Shown here: positions 2,687 to 28,553 of the stretch, piece by piece | Position numbering within the stretch: the stretch's first letter is position 1 | How the letters are laid out: the number at the start of each line of letters is the position of its first letter | Source: a virus | Reading direction: 5' to 3' (one strand) | DNA length: 30,504 bases | Virus record (IMG/VR): IMGVR_UViG_3300034096_000377 | Coordinates: 1-30,504 of that record | The notes under the pieces: model-generated | The model's database searches: none | What the model saw: the letters and a program-made list of their open reading frames with translations, nothing else | Told to the model about the DNA's origin: nothing | Made by a program: the position numbers and the translations under genes

Positions 2687-3118
2687 ATGACAAAACATGA
2701 TGCTGGTGAATGGTTGATTGGTTTGCAAGAACCAGAAGTTTCAGAAACTGGAACAATCATCTTGACAAATACACTTGTCAAAATCTATGTGAAAACAAAT
2801 TCAATTCCATCTGGTGAAATGACAATTGCATTGATTGGTCACAATGGAAATCAGAATGTGAATGAAAATGCAAAAAGAATTTGTGACTGTGTGAATGCAA
2901 TGAATGGAATTGATGAACCAAAAAAACTGATGCAAAGCTTCAACCAGCTGAAAAGAATTCTGGAACTATTGACTGAACAGAATGAATTGCTTCACAAAGC
3001 ACTTGACATCACTTTGAATCCAGACAAATATTCATCAGAAGAAGAACTTCACACAATCATGAAAGGAATTAAAAATTCATTCATCATGATGGAAGAAATT
3101 AAAAACATGAAACAATGA
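2687..3118 (+). CDS. Hypothetical early phage protein, 143 aa
   Basis: The central segment NENAKRICDCVNAMNGI (about residues 59-75) resembles a motif I associate with small early proteins of unknown function in Bacteroidota phages, where an Asn-Ala-x-Arg-Ile stretch precedes a Val-Asn-Ala-Met/Cys helix. The N-terminal half is predicted mostly beta and the C-terminal ~65 residues a long helix (KRILELLTEQNELLHKAL). No catalytic motif is visible. It starts just after the previous stop and ends in an ATGA overlap with the downstream XRE regulator, so both are expected to be made together. Confidence 0.7.
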   Translation: MTKHDAGEWLIGLQEPEVSETGTIILTNTLVKIYVKTNSIPSGEMTIALIGHNGNQNVNENAKRICDCVNAMNGIDEPKKLMQSFNQLKRILELLTEQNELLHKALDITLNPDKYSSEEELHTIMKGIKNSFIMMEEIKNMKQ

Positions 3119-3405
3119 AGAAACCACACACACTGACACAGCTGAACATCAATCTGAAGAAGTTCAGACTTGCAAAAGGTATTTCACAACAAAAGCTTTC
3201 AGACCATCTTGGATTCAAAAGAAGCACTTATGGTCAATGGGAAACAGCAAACATTCAACCATCAATTGGTCAAATCATTCAAATTGCTGAATTCTTTGAC
3301 ACTGATGTTGTTGTTTTATATTCAAAAAATATTGAAGTGATTCACTATGGTGAAAGCTTTGGTGAATCTTATATTAAACTAAAAACAGAAAACAATGCAG
3401 AATAA
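3115..3405 (+). CDS. XRE/Cro-CI family transcriptional regulator, 96 aa
   Basis: Residues ~10-68 form a classic Cro/CI-type HTH domain: LNINLKKFRLAKGISQQKL, a HLGFKRSTYGQWET recognition region, then IQPSIGQIIQIAEFFDTDV. There is no C-terminal oligomerisation or protease domain, so it is Cro-like in size, not a cleavable CI-type repressor. It lies deep within the early operon and has no obvious promoter of its own. Candidate targets are the palindromes that overlap promoter boxes at 28164-28179 and 1528-1541. That assignment is inference; the second HTH protein at 28633 competes for it. Confidence 0.85.
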   Translation: MKKPHTLTQLNINLKKFRLAKGISQQKLSDHLGFKRSTYGQWETANIQPSIGQIIQIAEFFDTDVVVLYSKNIEVIHYGESFGESYIKLKTENNAE

Positions 3406-8580: not shown

Positions 8581-9259
8581 AAAAATCTTCTTCTGTTTGA
8601 TTTATTGGTCTTTGATTGTTTGGTAAGTTGTTGATGATATTTGGAACACCAACTGGTCTGATGTTAAAAGTTTTTCTTGGATTCACCTTGAAGTTTCCAT
8701 CAGTCTGTGAATAGTTCACAGCATCAAAAGTGTCATTCACTTCACACATTCTTCTTTTCAATCTGGACAACCAGACATTTGCTTTCTTTGAAACATTTGC
8801 AATCAATTCAGCACGTCTTTGGTCAGTGATTTGTTCTGAAGTGTCTTCATCAATTTGAACAATTCCATATTGTGTCAAGTTTGTTCCAGCCCACAACAAA
8901 AAATTTCCATAACTAACAAACACCAAGAATGGTTTCAAGAAGTTCAAGAAGAATGTTCCAAGTTGATTCACTGACCAGTCAGCTGGATTCAATGATGGTT
9001 GACTTCCAGTGTTTGCATTGATAGCAATATAAACTGAAGAACCATCAACAACCAAATCATTCACAGCATAAACTGTCAAAGCATTCCAATCAGCATATCC
9101 ATTTGGTGCAGCAAGAATCAAAGCATTGAACATATTGTTTCCAATGACTGGCTTCAAATCAAATTCTTGTGCATCCAGAATGTTGTGATTGAAAATTCTG
9201 TCTTCAATGTTCTGTGTGAACTGTGTTAATTGTTGTATGTCAATTTTATTTATCAGCAT
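8570..9259 (-). CDS. Head-tail connector-like protein with inserted carbohydrate-binding-like module, 229 aa
   Basis: The helical scaffold (LGTFFLNFLKPFLVFVSYGNFLLW about 100-123, then FGIVQIDE-like YGIVQIDEDTSEQ and a long helix) resembles DUF6712-type connector/adaptor proteins of Bacteroidota phages, and it directly follows the portal gene. Inserted at residues ~57-95 is a short module with the spacing W58, T62, Y64, ND68xV, Y77, P88, W95. That is the signature of CBM5/12-like (chitin-binding type 3) domains: W...T.Y..GD.V...G..Y......P......W. Such modules often decorate virions or exoenzymes. Both the connector role and sugar binding are inferred from patterns. Its start shares base 9259 with the portal stop. 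Confidence 0.6.
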   Translation of the reverse strand: MLINKIDIQQLTQFTQNIEDRIFNHNILDAQEFDLKPVIGNNMFNALILAAPNGYADWNALTVYAVNDLVVDGSSVYIAINANTGSQPSLNPADWSVNQLGTFFLNFLKPFLVFVSYGNFLLWAGTNLTQYGIVQIDEDTSEQITDQRRAELIANVSKKANVWLSRLKRRMCEVNDTFDAVNYSQTDGNFKVNPRKTFNIRPVGVPNIINNLPNNQRPINQTEEDFYGN

Positions 9260-11710: not shown

Positions 11711-12706
11711 TTAACCAACATAGTTCACTTTCTGTGTTTGAACAGTCACAGCCGCTGCACTTGTGAACACTTGCTTGATGAATCTTGTGTCAGCATTGTT
11801 CTGAACAACATCAACTTTCACATAGCTGAAGTCAGAAGTCAAATCAGTTCCAAGAAGATAGTCAGACCATCTTCCAGCTGTCATTGTGTTTTCAGCTAAT
11901 GGAACAAACATGATGCGAACACCTAAGAAATAGAAATTGCCTTGTGCATCAACACTGAATTTGTCACGATAAAGTTGGTCGGTGTTATAAATTTGAATCA
12001 ATTGAAGATGACTTTCTGGTGCAAAAATTCTCACATCACCAATGTTTGATGATTGAAGCAACACGTTTGGAATTGCTGAATAGATTCTTTTGTATTCATC
12101 CCAAATGTTTATTGATGTAATTGCAACACCAGCAACATCAATTGAATTTCCAACAGCACCACGATTGTAAATTAAATAAGTGGTGATACCATCACAAAGT
12201 GTCAATGGTGCAGCTGCAACATAAGCTTTTTCTTCAGCTGTTAAATTTGGTCCTACTGGCAACAATGCAACAGCTGCTTTGGTTGCTGCACTTGCACCAT
12301 TCCAAAAGTTCTGTTCAATCAGTCTGGAAGTTTTTGTTCCATAAGTTTCCATAACAATGCGAAGCCATTCTTCTGGCATGATTTCCCAAGCACCAGAACG
12401 CATCTGTGTGCTGAATCTTGAAAACCTCAAATCATCTGGACAAAATTCATTGTAAGACATTTGCTTACATGGTGCAAGAATTGCATCATTGATGTCAATA
12501 GAACCACCAGCAACTGGTGCAGCACAAGTGTAAGCTTGTAAGGTCACATCAACATTCATTTCAGTGATGATTGTTTGTGCTTTGATGTCAGTGATTAATC
12601 TGACTTTGTTTTGTGAAACAGTTTCATTCTGGTGAAGAACTTCCATGAAGATTTCTTCAAAATATGTTCCAGTGAATTCAATCGGTGAATAAGCAATTCC
12701 AGCCAT
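11711..12706 (-). CDS. Major capsid protein, 331 aa
   Basis: Identified by position (after ClpP-like protease/scaffold and a small gene, before portal), size, and HK97-fold-like features: an N-terminal helical arm with YFEEIFMEVLHQNETVSQ, a spine helix region around WDEYKRIYSAIPNVLLQSSN, and the strand SDVRIF-like NIGDVRIFAPESHLQLIQIY. Near the end comes FYFLGVRIMFVPLAENTM, the P-domain/E-loop type ending seen in many capsids. It has no separate protease-cleaved delta domain that I can delimit. The Cys residues (58, 80, 89 region) could be structural. The ATG is preceded by an AAAAAATAGAAAA leader. Confidence rests on context as much as motif. Confidence 0.75.
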   Translation of the reverse strand: MAGIAYSPIEFTGTYFEEIFMEVLHQNETVSQNKVRLITDIKAQTIITEMNVDVTLQAYTCAAPVAGGSIDINDAILAPCKQMSYNEFCPDDLRFSRFSTQMRSGAWEIMPEEWLRIVMETYGTKTSRLIEQNFWNGASAATKAAVALLPVGPNLTAEEKAYVAAAPLTLCDGITTYLIYNRGAVGNSIDVAGVAITSINIWDEYKRIYSAIPNVLLQSSNIGDVRIFAPESHLQLIQIYNTDQLYRDKFSVDAQGNFYFLGVRIMFVPLAENTMTAGRWSDYLLGTDLTSDFSYVKVDVVQNNADTRFIKQVFTSAAAVTVQTQKVNYVG

Positions 12707-12734: not shown

Positions 12735-12932
12735 TTATTTTTTCTTTTTTACTTCTTTGATTTCTTCCTTCTTTCCAGATACCTTTTCAAATATCTTTCC
12801 AAGAAGTGTTTCATCTTTTGCAATGAACATTTCTGCAATTGCATCAGTCAAGTTTTCATTGGTGATTGAACTTCTTTCACCATAAGGTTTGAAAACAACA
12901 CCTTCTTTGATTTTATATTTTGCCGCTGCCAT
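12735..12932 (-). CDS. Small basic head-region protein, 65 aa
   Basis: The product starts AAAKYKIKEGVVFKPYG, has a short acidic helical middle (LTDAIAEMFIAKDETLLG) and ends in a Lys-rich stretch. Its first base coincides with the last base of the protease/scaffold gene, so the two are coupled. Small genes in this slot often encode head decoration or stabilising proteins, but no motif proves it here. The segment 12707-12734 is an AT-rich leader for the capsid gene. Confidence 0.6.
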   Translation of the reverse strand: MAAAKYKIKEGVVFKPYGERSSITNENLTDAIAEMFIAKDETLLGKIFEKVSGKKEEIKEVKKKK

Positions 12933-13483
12933 TACTTTGCACGATTTTCACGAATTCTGTTCAATTTCTTTTTCCAGTCTGGTGCATTTTCATCAGAAGT
13001 CACAACAGCTTTCTTCTTGTCATCAGCTTTTGAACCAATCACAATCTTTTTCACAGCTGTCAATTCATCTGAAATCAACTTCACAGCTTTTTCAGCTTCA
13101 ACATTTGCTTCAACTGCAACTTTCTTTTCAGCTTCAACATCAGAAAGCTTTCCTTCCAATTCAGCAACCTTTGCTTTCAATGCTGTCACTTCAGCATCTG
13201 GTTCAACAACAACAATTGCTGTCACCATTCCACCAGCAACAGACATCACATTTCCATCTTGCAACTTGTGGTCACCATCTGGTGCTGGAATTGTCATTGC
13301 TTCATCAGTGAACACAGCTTTTCCAACTTCAAGTTCACCTTCATGATAGATGTTTGAACCATCTTCAAGTGGTGTTGCATCAGCAACAATTTCAGCTTTC
13401 TTTTTTGTGGTGAATAGTGCAAGTATTTTTGCAACTGACTTTTCAAGACCAGTGATTTTTTCTTCAACTTTTACAGAATCCAT
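12932..13483 (-). CDS. Possible nested scaffold protein from internal ATG, 183 aa
   Basis: In frame with the protease gene, Met212 (codon at 13483-13481, protein start MDSVKVEEKI) is preceded on the minus strand by AATCAAATAAAAATTCAAAC. This A/T-rich stretch is nearly the same as the leaders before the capsid, tube-like and holin genes, and stands out from the TA-poor coding sequence around it. Nested scaffold genes within protease genes are well known (lambda C/Nu3). Initiation here would give free scaffold lacking the protease domain, in excess over the fusion. This is an inference from leader composition and domain boundaries. Confidence 0.55.
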   Translation of the reverse strand: MDSVKVEEKITGLEKSVAKILALFTTKKKAEIVADATPLEDGSNIYHEGELEVGKAVFTDEAMTIPAPDGDHKLQDGNVMSVAGGMVTAIVVVEPDAEVTALKAKVAELEGKLSDVEAEKKVAVEANVEAEKAVKLISDELTAVKKIVIGSKADDKKKAVVTSDENAPDWKKKLNRIRENRAK

Positions 13484-14116
13484 GTTTGAATTTTTATTTG
13501 ATTTTTGTTTATTATAAGCCATTATCATTTCAGCAATTGATGCTTTTGATTTGTTGCTGTTGCTTTCAAGATAACCAGTTGCAAATCCAAATCTGATTGC
13601 TTCATCTGCACCCAAATCAGAATCCACTGACATCAGTTCACTAAGCTTCACTTTTTCAGAATCATTCAGCTTCAATTTTGTTGCATAGAAATTGAACATC
13701 TTATCTTCAGATTGTTGCATTTCAATTGTCAATTGTTCAAGTGCATCAGCTGTCAAGACCATTCCATTCAGTGCATCACCAGACAGTCTTGGATTGTGAA
13801 TGATGAATTCAGCATTCTTTGAAAGCAATCTTTTTGAACCAGCTAAAAAAATAACAGTTGCAATGCTGTTCACTCTATATCCCTTTGTGATGATTGTCTT
13901 TCCAGAATTTACAAGCTGGTCATAAATGTCAAAGCCATGTGAAACAGAACCACCATTTGAACGAATTTCAACTTCAATTGTGTCTGCTTCATCATTGTCT
14001 TCAAGAAACTTTGCAACATACTGACTGGAAATTGTTGAATCTGGAACACCAAATGCTGTCAGCATTGGGTCAGCTTCACCAATTATTCCATCAATTACAA
14101 GTTTTGCTTTTGACAT
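12932..14116 (-). CDS. ClpP-like prohead protease fused to scaffold, 394 aa
   Basis: Residues ~1-190 have the ClpP/S14 pattern: VEIRSNGGSVSHGFDIYDQL, a Ser nucleophile at VNSIAT (Ser84), His107 in FIIHNP, and a later acidic segment (about 163-172) expected to give the third residue. Such proteases mature phage proheads. The second half is the scaffold: a linker at ~200-215, a small beta domain (EGELEVGKAVFTDEAMTIPAPDG cut at about 260-280, ending GGMVTAIVVVE), a long coiled coil (about 305-360) and a basic capsid-binding-type end (WKKKLNRIRENRAK). The protease would cleave the scaffold during maturation. An internal start at 13483 may give free scaffold. Confidence 0.85.
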   Translation of the reverse strand: MSKAKLVIDGIIGEADPMLTAFGVPDSTISSQYVAKFLEDNDEADTIEVEIRSNGGSVSHGFDIYDQLVNSGKTIITKGYRVNSIATVIFLAGSKRLLSKNAEFIIHNPRLSGDALNGMVLTADALEQLTIEMQQSEDKMFNFYATKLKLNDSEKVKLSELMSVDSDLGADEAIRFGFATGYLESNSNKSKASIAEMIMAYNKQKSNKNSNMDSVKVEEKITGLEKSVAKILALFTTKKKAEIVADATPLEDGSNIYHEGELEVGKAVFTDEAMTIPAPDGDHKLQDGNVMSVAGGMVTAIVVVEPDAEVTALKAKVAELEGKLSDVEAEKKVAVEANVEAEKAVKLISDELTAVKKIVIGSKADDKKKAVVTSDENAPDWKKKLNRIRENRAK

Positions 14117-14143
14117 CTAAGAATTTATATTTGATTCAAATGA

Positions 14144-14175
14144 TTTGATGAACAAAGCTAAATTGTTTAAATTTG
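14144..14175 (+). promoter_or_regulatory. Promoter for the ribbon-helix-helix gene
   Basis: TTTG at 14144-14147 and TAAATTTG at 14168-14175 are separated by exactly 20 bases, the Bacteroidota sigma-factor consensus (-33 TTTG, -7 TAnnTTTG). The expected start site is about 14182, giving a leader of roughly 36 bases to the ATG at 14218. The spacing equals that of the early rightward promoter at 28151-28182. Confidence 0.7.
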
Positions 14176-14184
14176 ATTTTCTAA
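14153..14184 (-). promoter_or_regulatory. Possible leftward head-operon promoter, face to face with the RHH promoter
   Basis: On the minus strand TAGCTTTG (14160-14153) fits TAnnTTTG. Twenty bases upstream is TTAG (14184-14181), one mismatch from TTTG. It would fire leftward into the protease/scaffold gene at 14116. It overlaps the opposing RHH promoter along almost its full length, so both could not be occupied at once. The -33 mismatch keeps confidence low. Confidence 0.35.
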
Positions 14185-14217
14185 TGTTAGTACTGAAAAT
14201 TAAAAACATGCACCATA

Positions 14218-14376
14218 ATGTCAGACCAAAAACAATTAAAAGGCTACATCAGTCCAGAACTGAAAGAAAAGTTTGATGCAAAAGTTGAAAAGCAATTTGG
14301 AAAAGGGAAACACACAACTGAAGTCATCAGAAAGCTGGTCATCAAATATGTTGATGGTGAAATAAAACTAAAGTGA
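14218..14376 (+). CDS. Small ribbon-helix-helix-like DNA-binding protein, 52 aa, opposite strand to its neighbours
   Basis: ATG at 14218-14220, 52 codons, stop TGA at 14374-14376. The protein begins MSDQKQLKGYISPELKEKFD. A short beta-strand-forming segment (LKGYISPEL) is followed by two helices separated by GKGKHTT and a TTEVIRKLVIKYVDG second helix. This matches the Arc/MetJ/CopG-type ribbon-helix-helix layout. Such proteins dimerise and act as repressors. It is the only rightward gene inside the 22-kb leftward late block and has its own promoter. Its 3' end overlaps the tape measure stop by nine bases. It could control the adjacent, overlapping head promoter. Codon use follows the genome rule (GAAC avoided before G, CAC before A), so it is not recently foreign. 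Confidence 0.65.
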   Translation: MSDQKQLKGYISPELKEKFDAKVEKQFGKGKHTTEVIRKLVIKYVDGEIKLK

Positions 14377-17300
14377 TGACCTGACTTGTGCATTCTTCAC
14401 ATTATTTTGAACACGATTGATGTCAGACACCAGAACAACTGGTTGAATTCCTTCAATTCCATTCAACAACTTTGATGATAGAATTTCAATGTCAAGTGAA
14501 TTCACAACACCAGCATTGATTTGACTTGATGCAAGTCCACCATCAGCAAATCCAGACATTCCAAGACTTCCAATTTTATTCAATCGCATTGCTTCCAGTT
14601 TTCCAACAAGTGCTGAACCATGTGGTGTTCTTAGCACCTTAGATGGGACAACATATTCATCAGCATGATATTGATATGGTTTTTTTCCAAGCTTTGTTGA
14701 CACTGTTCTTGGATTTCCTTCACCAGTATAACCACCTTTTTCAAATGGTGGTGGTGGTGGTTGTTGTGAAGCAATGATTCCAATTTGTGCCGCACCAGTT
14801 GCAGCCAAAATTCCAGCACGAATTCCAGACAACACTCCAAGTGTTGGGTCTGGTGTTGCAAATATTGCAATGATTCCTTGTGCTAAATTAGCAACAGCAC
14901 TTGCAATGTCAATTGCTTGTTTGAATTTAAAAGCTTCAACATCAAGTTCATATTTTTTCTTTGCACCTTCTTCTTGTGCTTTCTGAATCTGTTCTTCTTT
15001 TTGAAGTTCAGTCAGTGTTGTTTGTTGAATTGATTTGATTTGCTTGTTTGTCACAGCATCAACTTCTTTTGAAGCATTGGAAAAAGAATTGGAAACAGCA
15101 TCAGCAAGACTTCCAAAAACTTCTTTCAACTGGTCAATTGCAAAGTTTGCTTTTTCTGCAAAGTCTTTTGGAATCAAACCTTCAGAAGCTTTCTTTTGAA
15201 TTGCATTGATTTCAATTTCAACACCATTCAAAGCTGTTGCAAGTTCATCAATTCTTTTCTTTTCTTCTGGGTCAATGATGTTATCTGTCAATGCAAATTG
15301 CTTTGCAAGTTCAAGTGCTTTTGTATAGAAATTTTTTAAGTTTTCAAGTCTTTGAATTTCTGATTTCTTTTGTTCATCCCTTCTTTCCTGTTCATTGATT
15401 GCTGTTGATTTTGTCACCAGACCTTGAAACTTTTCTTCAAGAACCAGTGATTGTGTCAACAGTTCAAGTTGTGCTTGATAGTCATTTGCAATCTGGTCTT
15501 TTTTGATTTCTTGTGCTTCCATTGAAGTTTCTTCAATCAGCTTCAATTCATCTTGTTTAATTACTTCCAGATTTCTCAAAGCAATTTCTTCAAGCAAAAG
15601 AATTCTTTCTTTTTCTTGTTGCTTTATTAGTGTGACATCAATTCCATCAGCTTGAAGGTCTTTGATTCTTTGTGCTGATGCTTGTCTTTCTTCAATCAGA
15701 CCTTGTTCAATTTCTTTCCTTCTTCTTTCAAATTCATTTTTTTCTAAGCTGATGCGAAGTCTGTTCAGTTCATTTGTCAAATCAAGAATTGTTGCATTTC
15801 TTGTCTTGGTTCTTTCAATTGATTTCTGTCTTTCTTGTTCTTCAAAGATTGCAAGGTCTTGCTGTGCTTGAATGAAAGCATTCTTTCTGTCATTGTAAGC
15901 TTTTTCTTGGTCACCAGTCAACTGGTCAACACTGATTTTTGTTTTCTTTCTTATTTCTTCAGCAACTTCAAAAGCACGTCTTTCAGCTTCAATGTTTTGT
16001 TTCAACAGTTCACGTTGAAGTTTTGCAACTTGCTGTGACTTATTTCCAGAAGCTTGAAGCAATGCAATTTGATTCTTCAATGCAACTTGTGATTGTTCAA
16101 GTTGATATTTGAAACTGTCATAAAATTTTCCAAGTTCTTCAATGTCTGTTTTGAATTTCTTTTTCCCCATCAGACCAAGTGAGGTTGCAACTTGATTTGC
16201 TGTTTTTATAACTGCTTCAAGATTTCCAACAAAGAACTTCACAACATCACCAAGAATTGGAATGTCTGATGTCAAGTCTTTCACACGATTTGCAAGGTCA
16301 AGAACAGCTGTTTGAACTTCTTTCACTGTTCCTTCAAAATCAGAAATCAAACGAATGATTGTGACTAATGGTGAAGCAAACAGAAGAAGAATGTCAAGCA
16401 ATGACTTCACAACTTTATTCCCATTTGAAACATTTGCTGAAAAGTCTTTGATTCTGTTCACTGTTCTGTTCACCACTTTTGAAACAGCATCAAAATTGAA
16501 AATCAATTCAGAAAGAAGAATGACAACAGCACCAATTCCAGTTCCAGCAAGTGCAAGTTTGAAAGCTTTCATGCTTCCAGTTGACTTTCCAACAACTTGT
16601 GCATAGACTTTTTGTGCAACAGACATTGTTCCAGTTGCTTGTGCATTGGCTATTGATGCGGCTGTGAAGTTCTTCATTTGAAGTATTTTCAACTTTTCAA
16701 TTGCAACTTGTTTCAAATCATTGACAGCACCAACAGACTTTGCAACATTCACAACAGCTTGTTGAACTGCAACAAGTTTCAAGATTCTTGCTTGTGCTTC
16801 AGCTGTTGAATTTGACTTTCCAAAAGCAATTTCAGCAAGTTGAATTCCACCGACAACACCAGCTGTTGCATCAGCAAGGTCATCATAAGATTTTTTGACA
16901 AGGTTCTTTGGTTCTTTGTTTCCAAATTCATCTACCTTTCCTTGAACTTTCTGAATCTGAAATTCAGTGTCTTTGATTGCTTTGTTTGTCTTTTCAAAAG
17001 TTTCACTTCCAATTTCTTGTGTTGCAAGTTGCTTTTTCAAATCAGAAACTTTCTGTGTCAAACCAGCAAGATTGTTTTCATATTGAACAGCACCTTCTGA
17101 ACCTTTGTTCACATTGGTTGTGAATCCAATCATGGTTCTTTCCAGATTTTCAATTTCAGCATTGTTTGCAGCAATCTGATTTGTTGCTGATTCATAGACC
17201 TGTTCATTGGTCATCAATGCTTTGTTTTCTTGATTCAATGAATTGGTGAATCCCTTTGTGACAACTGTTCCATCTTTTGTCACATCATTGAATCCAATTC

Positions 17301-17865
17301 CCTTCTTGATGTTGTTCTGTGTTGTTTGCTGAACTTGTTCAAGACTTTGATTTTCTTTCTTCAGTGCAGCAATCAATTCAGCAAGTTCAATCTTTGTGTA
17401 GTTTCCAACATTCCTTCTGTTGTCACCAACAGCTGATTCATTTGCTTTCAACTGGTCAGTGATTTCAAGAACAGTTTGTGCAAGTTGTTTTCCTTTTTCA
17501 GTTGTCTGTCTTTCACCTTCACCAAGTGCATTCAGTTCAGCTGTCAACTTTGAAAGCAAAGCACGAAGCTGATTGTTTGAACCAACATTGCTGTTGACAA
17601 TCTTTGCATTCGTTTCAAGTTCTTTGTTGACTTCTTTCTGTCTTGCAACAAGTTGTTTCTGTTCTTTCTGAATATCGAAAAGCTGTGTCTTTAACTTTTC
17701 ACGTGCTTGTGGATTTGTTTCTTTTGAAAGTTCTTTGTTCAAGCTTTTCACTTGTTCTTTCACATCAATCAATCTGGAAGCAATATTTTTTTGTTCCTTT
17801 TCAAGATTGCTGGTGTCAAGCTTCAGACTGACAATGACTTCTTTTTTTATGTTTTCCGATGCCAT
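14368..17865 (-). CDS. Tape measure protein, 1165 aa
   Basis: The longest gene. Tape measure proteins set tail length and are ejected with the DNA. Residues ~1-330 are heptad-rich coiled coil (LEKEQKNIASRLIDVKEQVK type). Hydrophobic segments lie at ~436-460 (LALAGTGIGAVVILLSELIF) and ~489-507, as expected for a protein that crosses the host membrane on entry. A second long coiled-coil part runs ~610-960. The C-terminal ~200 residues have an Ala-rich membrane-like helix (IASAVANLAQGIIAIF), PPPPPFEKGGYTG and YHADEYVVPSKVL, the Gly-rich/His motif common near tape measure C-termini. By usual scaling (about 1.5 angstrom per residue) the tail would be near 170 nm; that figure is an estimate. Confidence 0.9.
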   Translation of the reverse strand: MASENIKKEVIVSLKLDTSNLEKEQKNIASRLIDVKEQVKSLNKELSKETNPQAREKLKTQLFDIQKEQKQLVARQKEVNKELETNAKIVNSNVGSNNQLRALLSKLTAELNALGEGERQTTEKGKQLAQTVLEITDQLKANESAVGDNRRNVGNYTKIELAELIAALKKENQSLEQVQQTTQNNIKKGIGFNDVTKDGTVVTKGFTNSLNQENKALMTNEQVYESATNQIAANNAEIENLERTMIGFTTNVNKGSEGAVQYENNLAGLTQKVSDLKKQLATQEIGSETFEKTNKAIKDTEFQIQKVQGKVDEFGNKEPKNLVKKSYDDLADATAGVVGGIQLAEIAFGKSNSTAEAQARILKLVAVQQAVVNVAKSVGAVNDLKQVAIEKLKILQMKNFTAASIANAQATGTMSVAQKVYAQVVGKSTGSMKAFKLALAGTGIGAVVILLSELIFNFDAVSKVVNRTVNRIKDFSANVSNGNKVVKSLLDILLLFASPLVTIIRLISDFEGTVKEVQTAVLDLANRVKDLTSDIPILGDVVKFFVGNLEAVIKTANQVATSLGLMGKKKFKTDIEELGKFYDSFKYQLEQSQVALKNQIALLQASGNKSQQVAKLQRELLKQNIEAERRAFEVAEEIRKKTKISVDQLTGDQEKAYNDRKNAFIQAQQDLAIFEEQERQKSIERTKTRNATILDLTNELNRLRISLEKNEFERRRKEIEQGLIEERQASAQRIKDLQADGIDVTLIKQQEKERILLLEEIALRNLEVIKQDELKLIEETSMEAQEIKKDQIANDYQAQLELLTQSLVLEEKFQGLVTKSTAINEQERRDEQKKSEIQRLENLKNFYTKALELAKQFALTDNIIDPEEKKRIDELATALNGVEIEINAIQKKASEGLIPKDFAEKANFAIDQLKEVFGSLADAVSNSFSNASKEVDAVTNKQIKSIQQTTLTELQKEEQIQKAQEEGAKKKYELDVEAFKFKQAIDIASAVANLAQGIIAIFATPDPTLGVLSGIRAGILAATGAAQIGIIASQQPPPPPFEKGGYTGEGNPRTVSTKLGKKPYQYHADEYVVPSKVLRTPHGSALVGKLEAMRLNKIGSLGMSGFADGGLASSQINAGVVNSLDIEILSSKLLNGIEGIQPVVLVSDINRVQNNVKNAQVRSSL

Positions 17866-24126: not shown

Positions 24127-24382
24127 GATGTTGTTGATAAATGTTTTTTAAGTTCTTTTCAAATTTTCTTTTTTCTTTTTCAAACATCAATGTCATGAAG
24201 ATTGTTTCAGCTGGTGTTTCAAGAATCTTGTCAAACTTCAAAACATCACCTTCAGCAAGTGCATAAACAGTGTTGAAGAAACCATATTTGTCAAACACTT
24301 CAATTCCAGCTGATTCTTCAAGGTCTGTCACTTCTTTTTCGTTCAATCGTTTGAATCTGTCAAAAAAGTCAAACATTTGCAC
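24104..24382 (-). CDS. Tail assembly chaperone, T domain reached by -1 frameshift
   Basis: A 92-codon frame if it starts at GTG 24382 (or ATG 24376). It overlaps the upstream chaperone frame by 40 bases and lies exactly in its -1 frame. The product is charged and helical (MFEKEKRKFEKNLKNIYQQH). In siphoviruses the two-frame arrangement produces G and a longer G-T fusion that loads onto the tape measure protein. A -1 shift at 24367-24361 would join about 180 residues of G to about 85 residues from here (about 265 in total). Independent translation from GTG is possible, but no good leader is visible because the T-run occupies that site. Confidence 0.65.
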   Translation of the reverse strand: MQMFDFFDRFKRLNEKEVTDLEESAGIEVFDKYGFFNTVYALAEGDVLKFDKILETPAETIFMTLMFEKEKRKFEKNLKNIYQQHHDLSKHH

Positions 24383-24900
24383 AAAAAAAAATTTGCTTGT
24401 CCAATTGCTTCAAGAACTGGAAGCTGACCAATATCTTTTCCAGTGTAGATTTTCACAATTTCTTTTGCTGAATTGATTGAATCTTTTGCTGGTGTGTGGT
24501 CAATTACTGTCAAGACTTCAACATCATTTTCATCTTTCACCATTCCAGTGATTGGTTGTGGTGAACAAAGATTGATTGCTGTCTTTGCTTGTTCCAGCTT
24601 TGACCATGATTCATCACCAATGTTCCATTCTTCAAATCCATCTGGTGTCTGAACATGATTGATGATTTCAGTTCTGTCAAAAACAAAAAAACAAACTTTT
24701 GAAAGAACAATGAATTCATCAGCACTTATGTTGATGATGTCCAGCAATGGAACACCAGACAGAATGCTGATGACATTTTCAATCTTTCCTTCATCACCAT
24801 TGACCAGTTCAACATATTTGTCAAATGTAACTTCTGACCAGTTTGATGGAACTGAAACTTTTGTTTCAACACCATCTTTGGAATAAAGAAAATTTATCAT
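24343..24900 (-). CDS. Tail assembly chaperone G-like protein, 185 aa
   Basis: The N-terminal NWSEVTFDKYVELV and ENVISILSGVPLLDI patterns are those of tail assembly chaperones in Bacteroidota phages: a 'W.e.t...y..l' strand-helix, then 'isilsG.....i....'. The rest is alpha-helical and mildly acidic. The C-terminal codons run into two T-rich slippery sequences, and the frame ends at 24343, shortly after them. It is the first gene after terminase, following a hairpin and a possible promoter at 25003-25032. It would chaperone the tape measure protein during tail assembly. Confidence 0.65.
   Translation of the reverse strand: MINFLYSKDGVETKVSVPSNWSEVTFDKYVELVNGDEGKIENVISILSGVPLLDIINISADEFIVLSKVCFFVFDRTEIINHVQTPDGFEEWNIGDESWSKLEQAKTAINLCSPQPITGMVKDENDVEVLTVIDHTPAKDSINSAKEIVKIYTGKDIGQLPVLEAIGQANFFLCKCLTFLTDSND
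24361..24367 (-). other. Slippery heptamer for -1 programmed frameshift
   Basis: On the minus strand the zero-frame codons ACT TTT TTG contain the heptamer T TTT TTG (XXXYYYZ). Slipping back one base lets both tRNAs re-pair and continues as GAC AGA in the downstream frame. A second run of nine T (24391-24383), 15 bases upstream, offers another T TTT TTT site. The location in the overlap of two chaperone-like frames is diagnostic. I did not find a clear downstream pseudoknot by eye. Confidence 0.65.
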
Positions 24901-24944
24901 TCAAATTTAGTTTAAAAATTAAGGTTATATTTTTTTAAGTACTG

Positions 24945-24978
24945 AAAAAAGCTGGTCACACTCCGACATGTGACCAGC
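24945..24978 (-). terminator. Leftward rho-independent terminator/attenuator after terminase
   Basis: A perfect 10-bp stem GCTGGTCACA (24951-24960) with TGTGACCAGC (24969-24978) encloses the loop CTCCGACA. On the minus strand it is followed directly by six T (24950-24945). It would stop transcription coming out of the terminase genes. Because a promoter candidate lies 25 bases upstream, it may also attenuate the tail transcript. Confidence 0.8.
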
Positions 24979-25002: not shown

Positions 25003-25032
25003 CAAATATAAGTTTTTAAATTAAGAACCAAA
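25003..25032 (-). promoter_or_regulatory. Possible tail-operon promoter inside the end of the terminase gene
   Basis: Minus strand TATATTTG (25010-25003) with TTTG (25032-25029) 18 bases upstream. The spacing is two shorter than in the two best promoters of this genome. The predicted start (about 24996) is followed at once by the hairpin 24951-24978. It would feed the chaperone gene at 24900. Confidence 0.45.
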
Positions 25033-26352
25033 GCTTTTGCTTCTGATTGTTGTTGATGGTGCAAGTTCAAAAAACATTCTCATCATCATTGCATCTGAAA
25101 TGTCTGGTGACCTTCCAATCAATTCTTTGATTTTGTCTTTTGGAATCACTGCAAGTTTTCCATCTTTGTCAACATCTTTCCTTTTCACTTGTTCCAGTTC
25201 TTCAATCAGCTTCTGTCTGGTGACAATATCAATGTCAATCCATGAAATTCTGTTTGCATTGATTGCATCAGATAGCTTGAAATAACATTGTGACTTTAGA
25301 TTGATGAACTGTTCATCATTCAATGGTTTGCTTCCATTCAAGAAACCTTTGCACTTCAGCTGGTCAACCAGACCACCACCAACACCATCTTCATCACAGA
25401 CAATTTGTGACATTGGAATGCTGTGAAGCTTTGCCAGTTCTTTGATTCTTTCAGCTGTGTCAGTGGTGCTTGATTTCTTCAGAATATAAAAACTTATAAC
25501 TTGAAAACCATACCAGACCAGAATTGTGGTGCTGTCATTCCCATATCGTGCAACATCACATGTGATGAATTTCTTTCCAGCAAGAACATGTTCATTGGTG
25601 AAGATGTTCATGATTGATTCAAATTCAATCAGTTTTGATGGGTCATTGTCAAATTCCCAATTTCCAAACAGCAATCTTTCCCTTGACACATTGTCAAGTG
25701 TTTTCAAGTTTTCAATGTAGTGTCTGGAAATGTGTGGATTGTCACCAACAAGTGACTGAATGAATTTCTTTTTTGGGTCAAGCTTTCCTTCTTTGTGTGG
25801 TGTGTAGAATTGTTGATATGTCCAATTCTTTGCTGGATTGCAAGTGTATAAAATTTTAGGAATCAAATTGAATTCATCCAGCTTGAATCTGATTCTTGAC
25901 TTCAAGATGTTCTTGCACTTTTCACTGATTTGGTTTGCTTCATCAACAAACACACCAGTGATTTCAAGTGAACCAAGTTCATCAAAGTTCAAGTCTGATG
26001 GATATTGAAAAAGGTCTTTCAAAAGAATCTGTGAACCATTCCAAAGATTGACAGTGGAACTGGTGCTGTTCAATTTGTAGTGAACAGATTCAACCAGACC
26101 TTGCATCTTCATGACTTCAAACAATGTGACCAGTGTTGTTTCCTTCAGTGTTTTCAGCACAGCACGACCAATCAACCACCTTGTTGATGGAAACATGATT
26201 GCACACTTCAAAATCCAATAACAACCAAATGCTGACTTTCCACCACCAGCACCACCACCAAACAACACTTCTGTTGTGATGTCATCATTCAGAAATTTCA
26301 GTGCTGTTGATTGTTTCTTTGTCAGATTCATTTGTTTGGTCTTGTGCATCAA
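25021..26352 (-). CDS. terL: Terminase large subunit (packaging ATPase-nuclease), 443 aa
   Basis: Complete two-domain terminase. ATPase: Walker A GGGAGGGKS (residues 32-40), Walker B GVFVDEA (133-139), and a coupling motif in YTCNPAK (169-175). Nuclease: first Asp in ITCDVARYGND (Asp266), second in CDEDGVGGG (Asp320/Glu321/Asp322), third in SPDISDAMMM (Asp417/Asp420). The acidic residues are all present, so both activities should be intact. It translocates genomic DNA into the prohead through the portal and cuts the concatemer. The start at 26352 overlaps terS by 68 bases; ATG 26349 and 26331 (MNLTKKQ) are alternatives. It is followed by a terminator-like hairpin. Confidence 0.95.
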   Translation of the reverse strand: MMHKTKQMNLTKKQSTALKFLNDDITTEVLFGGGAGGGKSAFGCYWILKCAIMFPSTRWLIGRAVLKTLKETTLVTLFEVMKMQGLVESVHYKLNSTSSTVNLWNGSQILLKDLFQYPSDLNFDELGSLEITGVFVDEANQISEKCKNILKSRIRFKLDEFNLIPKILYTCNPAKNWTYQQFYTPHKEGKLDPKKKFIQSLVGDNPHISRHYIENLKTLDNVSRERLLFGNWEFDNDPSKLIEFESIMNIFTNEHVLAGKKFITCDVARYGNDSTTILVWYGFQVISFYILKKSSTTDTAERIKELAKLHSIPMSQIVCDEDGVGGGLVDQLKCKGFLNGSKPLNDEQFINLKSQCYFKLSDAINANRISWIDIDIVTRQKLIEELEQVKRKDVDKDGKLAVIPKDKIKELIGRSPDISDAMMMRMFFELAPSTTIRSKSFGS

Positions 26353-28150: not shown

Positions 28151-28182
28151 TTTGGTCAATAAGATATAAGAACTTATATTTG
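28151..28182 (+). promoter_or_regulatory. Early rightward promoter with overlapping palindromic operator
   Basis: TTTG at 28151-28154, 20 bases, TATATTTG at 28175-28182: a full match to the Bacteroidota consensus. The predicted start is about 28189, with an A-rich leader to the ATG at 28215. The near-perfect palindrome ATATAAG-AA-CTTATAT (28164-28179) overlaps the -7 box and is a likely operator. Related TATAA...TTATAT elements lie at 28559-28574 and 28613-28630. The surrounding control region 28025-28150 has no other gene I can support. Confidence 0.75.
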
Positions 28183-28214: not shown

Positions 28215-28553
28215 ATGAACTTGACATTTTTAGTGCCAGAAAACTTCACTGGAAGGAAACTTCAGAACTTCAAAAGAAAGCATTCAGCTGAACTTGACAG
28301 CTTGAAAGAAGGAAAGCATGTGATTGATTCAGTGACCATCATTGCATCCAAGACCAAAGCAAAACAAGCTGAAGCACCAAAGACCAGCATTGAACTTTTC
28401 ATTCCATCTGGAATGTTTGGAATCAATCTGGTTGAATGGAAAGTGAAAAACAACTATGAAGCCATGATTGAAGAAATGAAAGCTTCTAGTGAACAATTCA
28501 GAACCATTGATGGTGTGACCATCAGAATCAGTCAACAGATGTTTGAACATTAA
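28215..28553 (+). CDS. Hypothetical first early gene, 112 aa
   Basis: The first gene of the rightward operon, so probably made first after infection. It encodes a basic N-terminal half (FTGRKLQNFKRKHSAELDSL) and an alpha/beta C-terminal half containing IELFIPSGMFGINLVEWKV and a Met-containing tail (ISQQMFEH). No family is recognised. The promoter at 28151-28182 serves it, with the leader AAAAACAAAACAAC before the ATG. As an immediate early protein it is a plausible host-takeover or anti-defence candidate, but that is position-based guesswork. Confidence 0.65.
   Translation: MNLTFLVPENFTGRKLQNFKRKHSAELDSLKEGKHVIDSVTIIASKTKAKQAEAPKTSIELFIPSGMFGINLVEWKVKNNYEAMIEEMKASSEQFRTIDGVTIRISQQMFEH

Follow-up and report, generated by a model that had tools for sequence, protein, structure and literature searches.

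The position of a 52-codon gene that runs against the leftward late genes of an uncultured phage, between its tail and head genes, raises the question of what the gene is for. An earlier note on this DNA had offered two answers, a switch in late-gene timing or a moron acquired with its own promoter. Here we follow the question through the window, the 30,504-bp virus record that was analyzed as a whole, and through the contigs of its relatives, which bear L-numbers and came from scans whose queries were the protease, the RHH pair and the capsid protein.

Layout of the window

According to its open reading frames the window holds a leftward late block from ~28159 to 5666 that, in the order of transcription, includes a ParB-like nuclease, the terminase subunits, tail genes, the tape measure and a ClpP-like head protease, followed by a probable major capsid gene and by portal and lysis genes (Table 1). 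The capsid gene was called by its homology to a structural protein of phi46:1, and the tape-measure frame also matches tape-measure genes of Bacteroides phages. The small gene is present as the earlier note had described it, on the opposite strand, overlapping the end of the tape-measure frame by exactly 9 bases and leaving a gap of 101 bp to the protease start. Scans of the junction for sigma-70 promoters and terminators yielded nothing, and no terminator was found between the tail and head operons of the window. None was found between the small gene and the tape-measure gene either, which speaks against an autonomous cargo gene with a terminator of its own. The early region contains an HTH_3 (Cro/CI-like) gene at 3115-3405 on the forward strand. 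No integrase was recognized among the genes scanned, and genome scans with the protease found no prophages. The TAnnTTTG -7 box, spanning -12 to -5, is the flavobacterial sigma-A element (PMC9723704), and since the window contains elements of this flavobacterial type, its host probably belongs to the Bacteroidota.

Table 1. Features of the window that bear on the small gene and the two late operons (-7 and box denote promoter elements discussed in the text).
Feature	Position	Strand	Evidence
RHH promoter, TTTG-N20-TAAATTTG, start predicted at ~14180	14144..14175	+	perfect match
Second, upstream promoter-like site, TTTG-N19-TATATTTG	14103..14133	+	perfect match in the window
Head-operon -7 element TAGCTTTG, predicted start ~14148	14153..14160	-	29 nt from box core
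Head-promoter box AATTTTCA-GTAC-TAACAT, core 14190-14193	14184..14201	-	rare GTAC; position; relatives
RHH gene, 52 aa, ATG start	14218..14376	+	ORF; orthologues in slot; synonymous-only changes; family profiles
ClpP-like head maturation protease, gene 1 of the head operon	12932..14116	-	Pfam CLP_protease 9.6e-16; PHROG head maturation protease 3.1e-25
Tape-measure gene, with which the tail operon ends	14368..17865	-	PHROG tape measure 3.8e-5
Tail operon gene 1	24343..24900	-	homologue is first gene past the box in L012, L025, L002, L075
Tail-operon -7 element TAAATTTG	24902..24909	-	N29 from box core
Tail-promoter box TTTTTTCA-GTAC-TTAAAA, core 24939-24942	24933..24950	-	N29 to -7; counterparts past the terminase gene
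Intrinsic terminator after the terminase gene, 10-11 bp GC-rich stem, then T6	24951..24978	-	RNA fold
Terminase large subunit, directly upstream of terminator and tail promoter	25021..26352	-	PHROG 8.4e-33

A conserved gene with ribbon-helix-helix profile matches

Orthologues of the gene occupy the same opposite-strand slot, between tape measure and ClpP-like protease, in five other phage lineages. The one in L012 (4079-4240, same orientation) is 58% identical to the protein of the window (E 5e-22 in a single comparison), and in the same group the gene is also found in the slot of L021/L027 and, partially, of L022. L023, L024 and L025 carry a version with 50% identity, and more divergent ones stand in the slot of L002, L051 and L075. 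Between L012 and L027 we counted 9 synonymous and no nonsynonymous changes, between L023 and L024 13 and none. As judged from these comparisons the gene is real and under purifying selection. Its frame is kept in all relatives that bear the box described below, and L028 is the sole close relative without the gene.

On its own, the 52-aa protein of the window gave no match in Pfam (none to RHH_1 at E<=1), none in NCBIfam, no significant one in PHROG, and none among phage records or viral contigs. A profile of the eight-member family matched ParG (1p94, 5e-7) and SvtR (2kel, 5e-4), and a stricter profile of six members, with the two most divergent removed, matched ParG at 6.5e-4 and then SvtR at 0.41. 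The AlphaFold monomer forms two helices where the fold would have them, at residues 13-27 and 33-45 (pLDDT 77), with the N-terminal strand unformed in the monomer, and a Foldseek search with this model placed NikR, ParD and other ribbon-helix-helix entries at the top, but weakly, with E of at least 1.8. At the profile level the protein is a ribbon-helix-helix (RHH) protein of the CopG/Arc/MetJ superfamily. The earlier note's call of an RHH-like regulator thus holds through the family profiles, although not through a Pfam RHH_1 match of the single protein. Searches of cultured phages with the RHH proteins of L075 and L023 gave no match, and we found no close cultured relative of RHH.

Promoters and a shared box

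The promoter that the earlier note had assigned to the gene is indeed a perfect fit. Perfect matches to TTTG-N19-21-TANNTTTG number 3 in 30.5 kb where 1.18 are expected by chance, a count that is not significant, but their placement is, as two of the three lie in or beside the 101-bp gap and the third before the rightward gene at 28215. Note that this third match (28151-28182, forward strand) probably is an early promoter and has no box. The additional match at the gap precedes the RHH promoter by 41 bp and lies partly within the protease start. A 13-mer, TTTGATGAACAAA, common to positions 14144 and 28179 was dismissed, as AT-rich DNA should contain repeats of this length by chance.

An overlapping leftward promoter for the head genes had also been suggested, TTAG-N20-TAGCTTTG (14184-14153). 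With one mismatch, and with 14 such matches seen in the window against 13.8 expected, it was rejected on its own merits, its frequency being at chance level. It was rescued because GTAC-N29 stands upstream of its TAGCTTTG. GTAC is strongly depleted, with 13 occurrences in the window where 101 are expected and 3 against 56 in the 16.6-kb locus of L051, and its presence in the gap between RHH gene and protease is notable for this reason. Other palindromic tetramers are also strongly depleted in the window (GATC is seen 0 times against ~111 expected), a likely consequence of restriction avoidance, and L013 contains no GATC, GGCC or GTAC. Restriction avoidance would account for the scarcity of GTAC, but not for its placement.

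A second GTAC box is found ~10.7 kb from the first, in front of the tail operon, and both boxes contain TTTTCAGTACT. The terminator after the terminase gene, with an RNA fold of -20 kcal/mol (z = -3.9), contributes its T-run to this tail box. The combination GTAC-N29-TANNTTTG, for which chance predicts 0.01 occurrences in the window and 0.06 in a 20-kb piece of L051, is found two times in each. It should be kept in mind that the box was spotted by eye and that such single-genome statistics are post hoc, the covariation and the tests in L012 and L075 less so. Other palindromes in the 101-bp gap were weak or absent from relatives and were set aside. When the 4-mers found upstream of TAnnTTTG were all ranked without weights, A-tracts dominated and the outcome was uninformative, and the evidence for the box therefore rests on the rarity of GTAC, on position and on covariation.

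Counted from the published -7 position, the centre of the box falls at -41.5 to -44.5 at 16 of the 16 late promoters listed (~-43.5 in the window), and at +4.5 to +17.5, or roughly +4 to +18, at the RHH promoters (~+12 in the window). A recognizable -33 element is mostly missing from the late promoters, while that of the RHH promoter of the window is perfect. The link to late-gene control that the earlier note had drawn is supported, with one box common to the RHH, head and tail promoters.

The same positions bear on what a protein bound there would do. RHH might bind the boxes and yet repress all three promoters, with the late genes staying silent until RHH is removed or replicating DNA titrates it. 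At the late promoters the box comes near the -33 region, and RHH proteins of the Arc, Mnt, CopG, ParG and SvtR type are repressors. However, a centre at -41.5 to -44.5 is the usual position of a class II activator and leaves the -7 element free, the general lack of -33 elements is what would be expected if the late promoters needed an activator, and a repressor that represses itself has no built-in release. We consider repression of all three promoters rather unlikely, but regard it as the main rival to the activator switch outlined below.

The start codon of the tail operon lies 1 nt past the -7 element in the window, closer than the expected start site, and 4-7 nt past it in other genomes. 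Start codons 1-7 nt past a -7 element are seen at the second sites of the window (24890-24909), L012, L022, L023, L025, L002 and L075 and at the head sites of L023/L025, so that the mRNA of the tail operon, and of the head operon in L023/L025, is predicted to be leaderless or nearly so. L028 has the same short distance at both places.

Boxes in related phages

The gap between RHH gene and protease contains an imperfect palindrome whose centre is GTAC in the window, L023, L002, L051 and L075 and GTCC in L012/L027, and the distance from the core of the head box to the -7 element is exactly 29 nt in the window, L051, L012 and L002. Sites of the form box-N27-30-TAnnTTTG come as a pair per genome, always on the late strand, in the window, L025, L051 and L075, and two late-strand sites are also present in L002 (one with an imperfect -7) and L012 (with a GTCC core). 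In five lineages (the window, L012/L022, L023/L025, L002 and L075) the second site follows closely on the terminase gene and immediately precedes the first tail gene; in the sixth, L051, it is found at 12617 (N29) before another set of late genes. The second site of L012, at 5083, combines an AGTCCTT box, N29 and TATATTTG. That of L022 lies at 8829, those of L023 (5906) and L025 (23191) have N30, as does the head promoter of L025, and those of L002 (19509) and L075 have N28 and N27, respectively. The head -7 of L023 is imperfect. Hairpins with T-runs are visible at the equivalent position past the terminase gene in L012, L022, L023, L025 and L028.

With the head box of L012 as the sole query, the second-best match in 28.9 kb has a perfect -7 at exactly N29, and both sites of this genome have GTCC. 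In 5 of the 5 two-site lineages tested in this way the head box is best matched by the second box of its own genome, although the two sites are unlinked, and only 1 of 120 permutations, the smallest number that the test allows, attains the total of the within-genome pairs. In L023 (6462-6543) and L025 (6486-6567) a tandem of two copies of ATTAAGTACCAAA, ~21 bp apart, precedes the RHH start and possibly represents two operators. Gene, promoter, boxes, positions and covariation can all be read from the sequences and their comparison.

L028, ~67% identical in capsid and terminase, provides the counterpart. Its tape measure and protease are 27 bp apart, no RHH gene was found in its 20.9-kb partial contig, although one could lie in the missing part, and both boxes are missing while the -7 elements and the terminator are kept. 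Complete phi46:1 likewise gave no RHH match and no box promoter.

In the window, the RHH promoter and the leftward head promoter overlap across 23 bp. In 7 of 8 sequences an RHH-strand TAnnTTTG lies within the spacer that separates the -7 of the head promoter from its box, as opposed to 4.6% of shuffled spacers and 0 of 6 second sites. From this retention, overlapping and facing promoters are a conserved design at the level of sequence. Both the 23-bp overlap and the nesting kept in 7 of 8 would fit a purely local mutual exclusion, in which RHH acts only on its own gene and on the head promoter and sets the timing of the head genes apart from that of the tail. The tail operon past the terminase gene, however, has the same box in five lineages, which implies that both operons share the signal, and we regard exclusion confined to this junction as very improbable. 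The separate timing of tail and head expression put forward in the earlier note accordingly found no support; with a box at both operons, common control is indicated instead.

The slot as an insertion site

In the more distant phages L050, L013, L029 and L080 another RHH-like gene occupies the slot, that of L050 with a Pfam RHH_1 match of 3e-5, those of L013, L029 and L080 assigned from the sequence pattern only. The RHH gene is the cassette gene closest to the head operon in L050, L013, L029 and L051, and the farthest in L080. A repeated or shared box pair was not found in L050, L029, L013 or L080, though the slot has an RHH gene. More generally the slot is a hotspot at which opposite-strand cassettes insert (L050, L051, L013, L029, L080, L054, L055, L057, L064 and L065), with a cargo of glycosyltransferases (L013, L080), a lipoprotein-like gene (L050), membrane proteins, and GIY-YIG-like homing endonucleases (L054, L055). 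In further phages it holds unrelated small genes or is empty. Part of the moron idea survives here: the gene has its own promoter, and in L050, L051, L013, L029 and L080 an RHH gene does sit in an opposite-strand cassette. A plain moron is unlikely in the lineage of the window, in view of purifying selection and of a box at two phage operons.

These observations also allow for a reading in which another factor, of host or phage, binds the boxes, with the RHH gene as an autonomous moron that just happens to lie beside one of them. The slot takes unrelated opposite-strand inserts as well, and the HTH_3 protein of the window (3115-3405) would be a candidate for such a factor. Against this, 6 of 6 box-bearing lineages have the RHH gene and the close relative without it, L028, lacks both boxes; the variants of the box differ among genomes but agree within each; and in every box-bearing lineage the RHH promoter overlaps a box. 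We therefore hold a separate box-binding factor to be improbable.

A putative early-to-late switch

We propose, as the rather likely reading, that RHH is an early-to-late switch that binds the box, shuts itself off and turns on both late operons. Early in infection host RNA polymerase would use the strong RHH promoter, which is of host type, and this use would keep polymerase off the nested, opposite head promoter. Accumulating RHH dimers would then occupy the box, which at ~+12 should block the RHH promoter and at ~-43.5 should recruit polymerase to both late promoters, head and tail, and the two structural operons would then begin together. Binding of the box by RHH and activation from it are the steps that we infer. 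Counting against the proposal are that most RHH proteins are repressors, that transcription of the tail operon could continue into the head operon, and that the tail start codon of the window lies so close to its -7 element, besides the partial contig of L028 and the lack of a shared box pair in L050, L029, L013 and L080.

The wider statement, that RHH is a master early-to-late activator of Bacteroidota phages, that it closes its own nested promoter and opens two structural operons far apart by way of a single coevolving box, and that box-N27-30-TAnnTTTG without a -33 element is a previously undescribed class of late promoter, appears to us to stand a little better than even. The proposal gives a concrete regulator, base-level predicted binding sites and two target promoters in uncultured phages, and predicts a promoter class open to searches elsewhere as well as a minimal activator, limiting itself, for hosts in which genetic tools are few. 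If RHH proteins do act as late activators of phages, a family known chiefly for its repressors would become broader.

Comparison with known systems

The timing of late genes in tailed Bacteroidota phages appears little studied, and no paper on it was found in the open-access literature searched. Arc and Mnt of phage P22, like CopG, ParG and SvtR, resemble the protein of the window as RHH proteins of ~50 aa with an operator at their own promoter. Their known roles are in repression or partition, while the site in the window recurs at an activator position before late operons. Mu C, P2 Ogr and T4 MotA are similar to the proposed switch in that they are phage-encoded activators and stand in for an upstream element that late or middle promoters lack, but they have other folds and other hosts and are not divergent from a nested late promoter.

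Protein p4 of phi29 represses the early promoters A2b and A2c and activates the late promoter A3, which has a poor -35 (PMC3100819). Like RHH in the proposed switch it is a small early regulator, with sites at inverted repeats between early and late promoters (PMC3100819), and the layout in the window is similar, the box lying over the RHH promoter at ~+12 and upstream, at -43.5, of late promoters with mostly poor -33 elements. The two differ in that p4 has an N-hook and works with p6, whereas profile and fold matches of the protein of the window point to RHH and not to p4. The phi29 switch moreover acts at one promoter cluster, while the window has a second box ~10.7 kb away at the tail operon, and here the regulator gene lies inside the late region on the opposite strand. 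The earlier note knew of no described equivalent, and within the open-access literature searched this stands for the anatomy of the locus; in function, p4 of phi29 is a close analogue.
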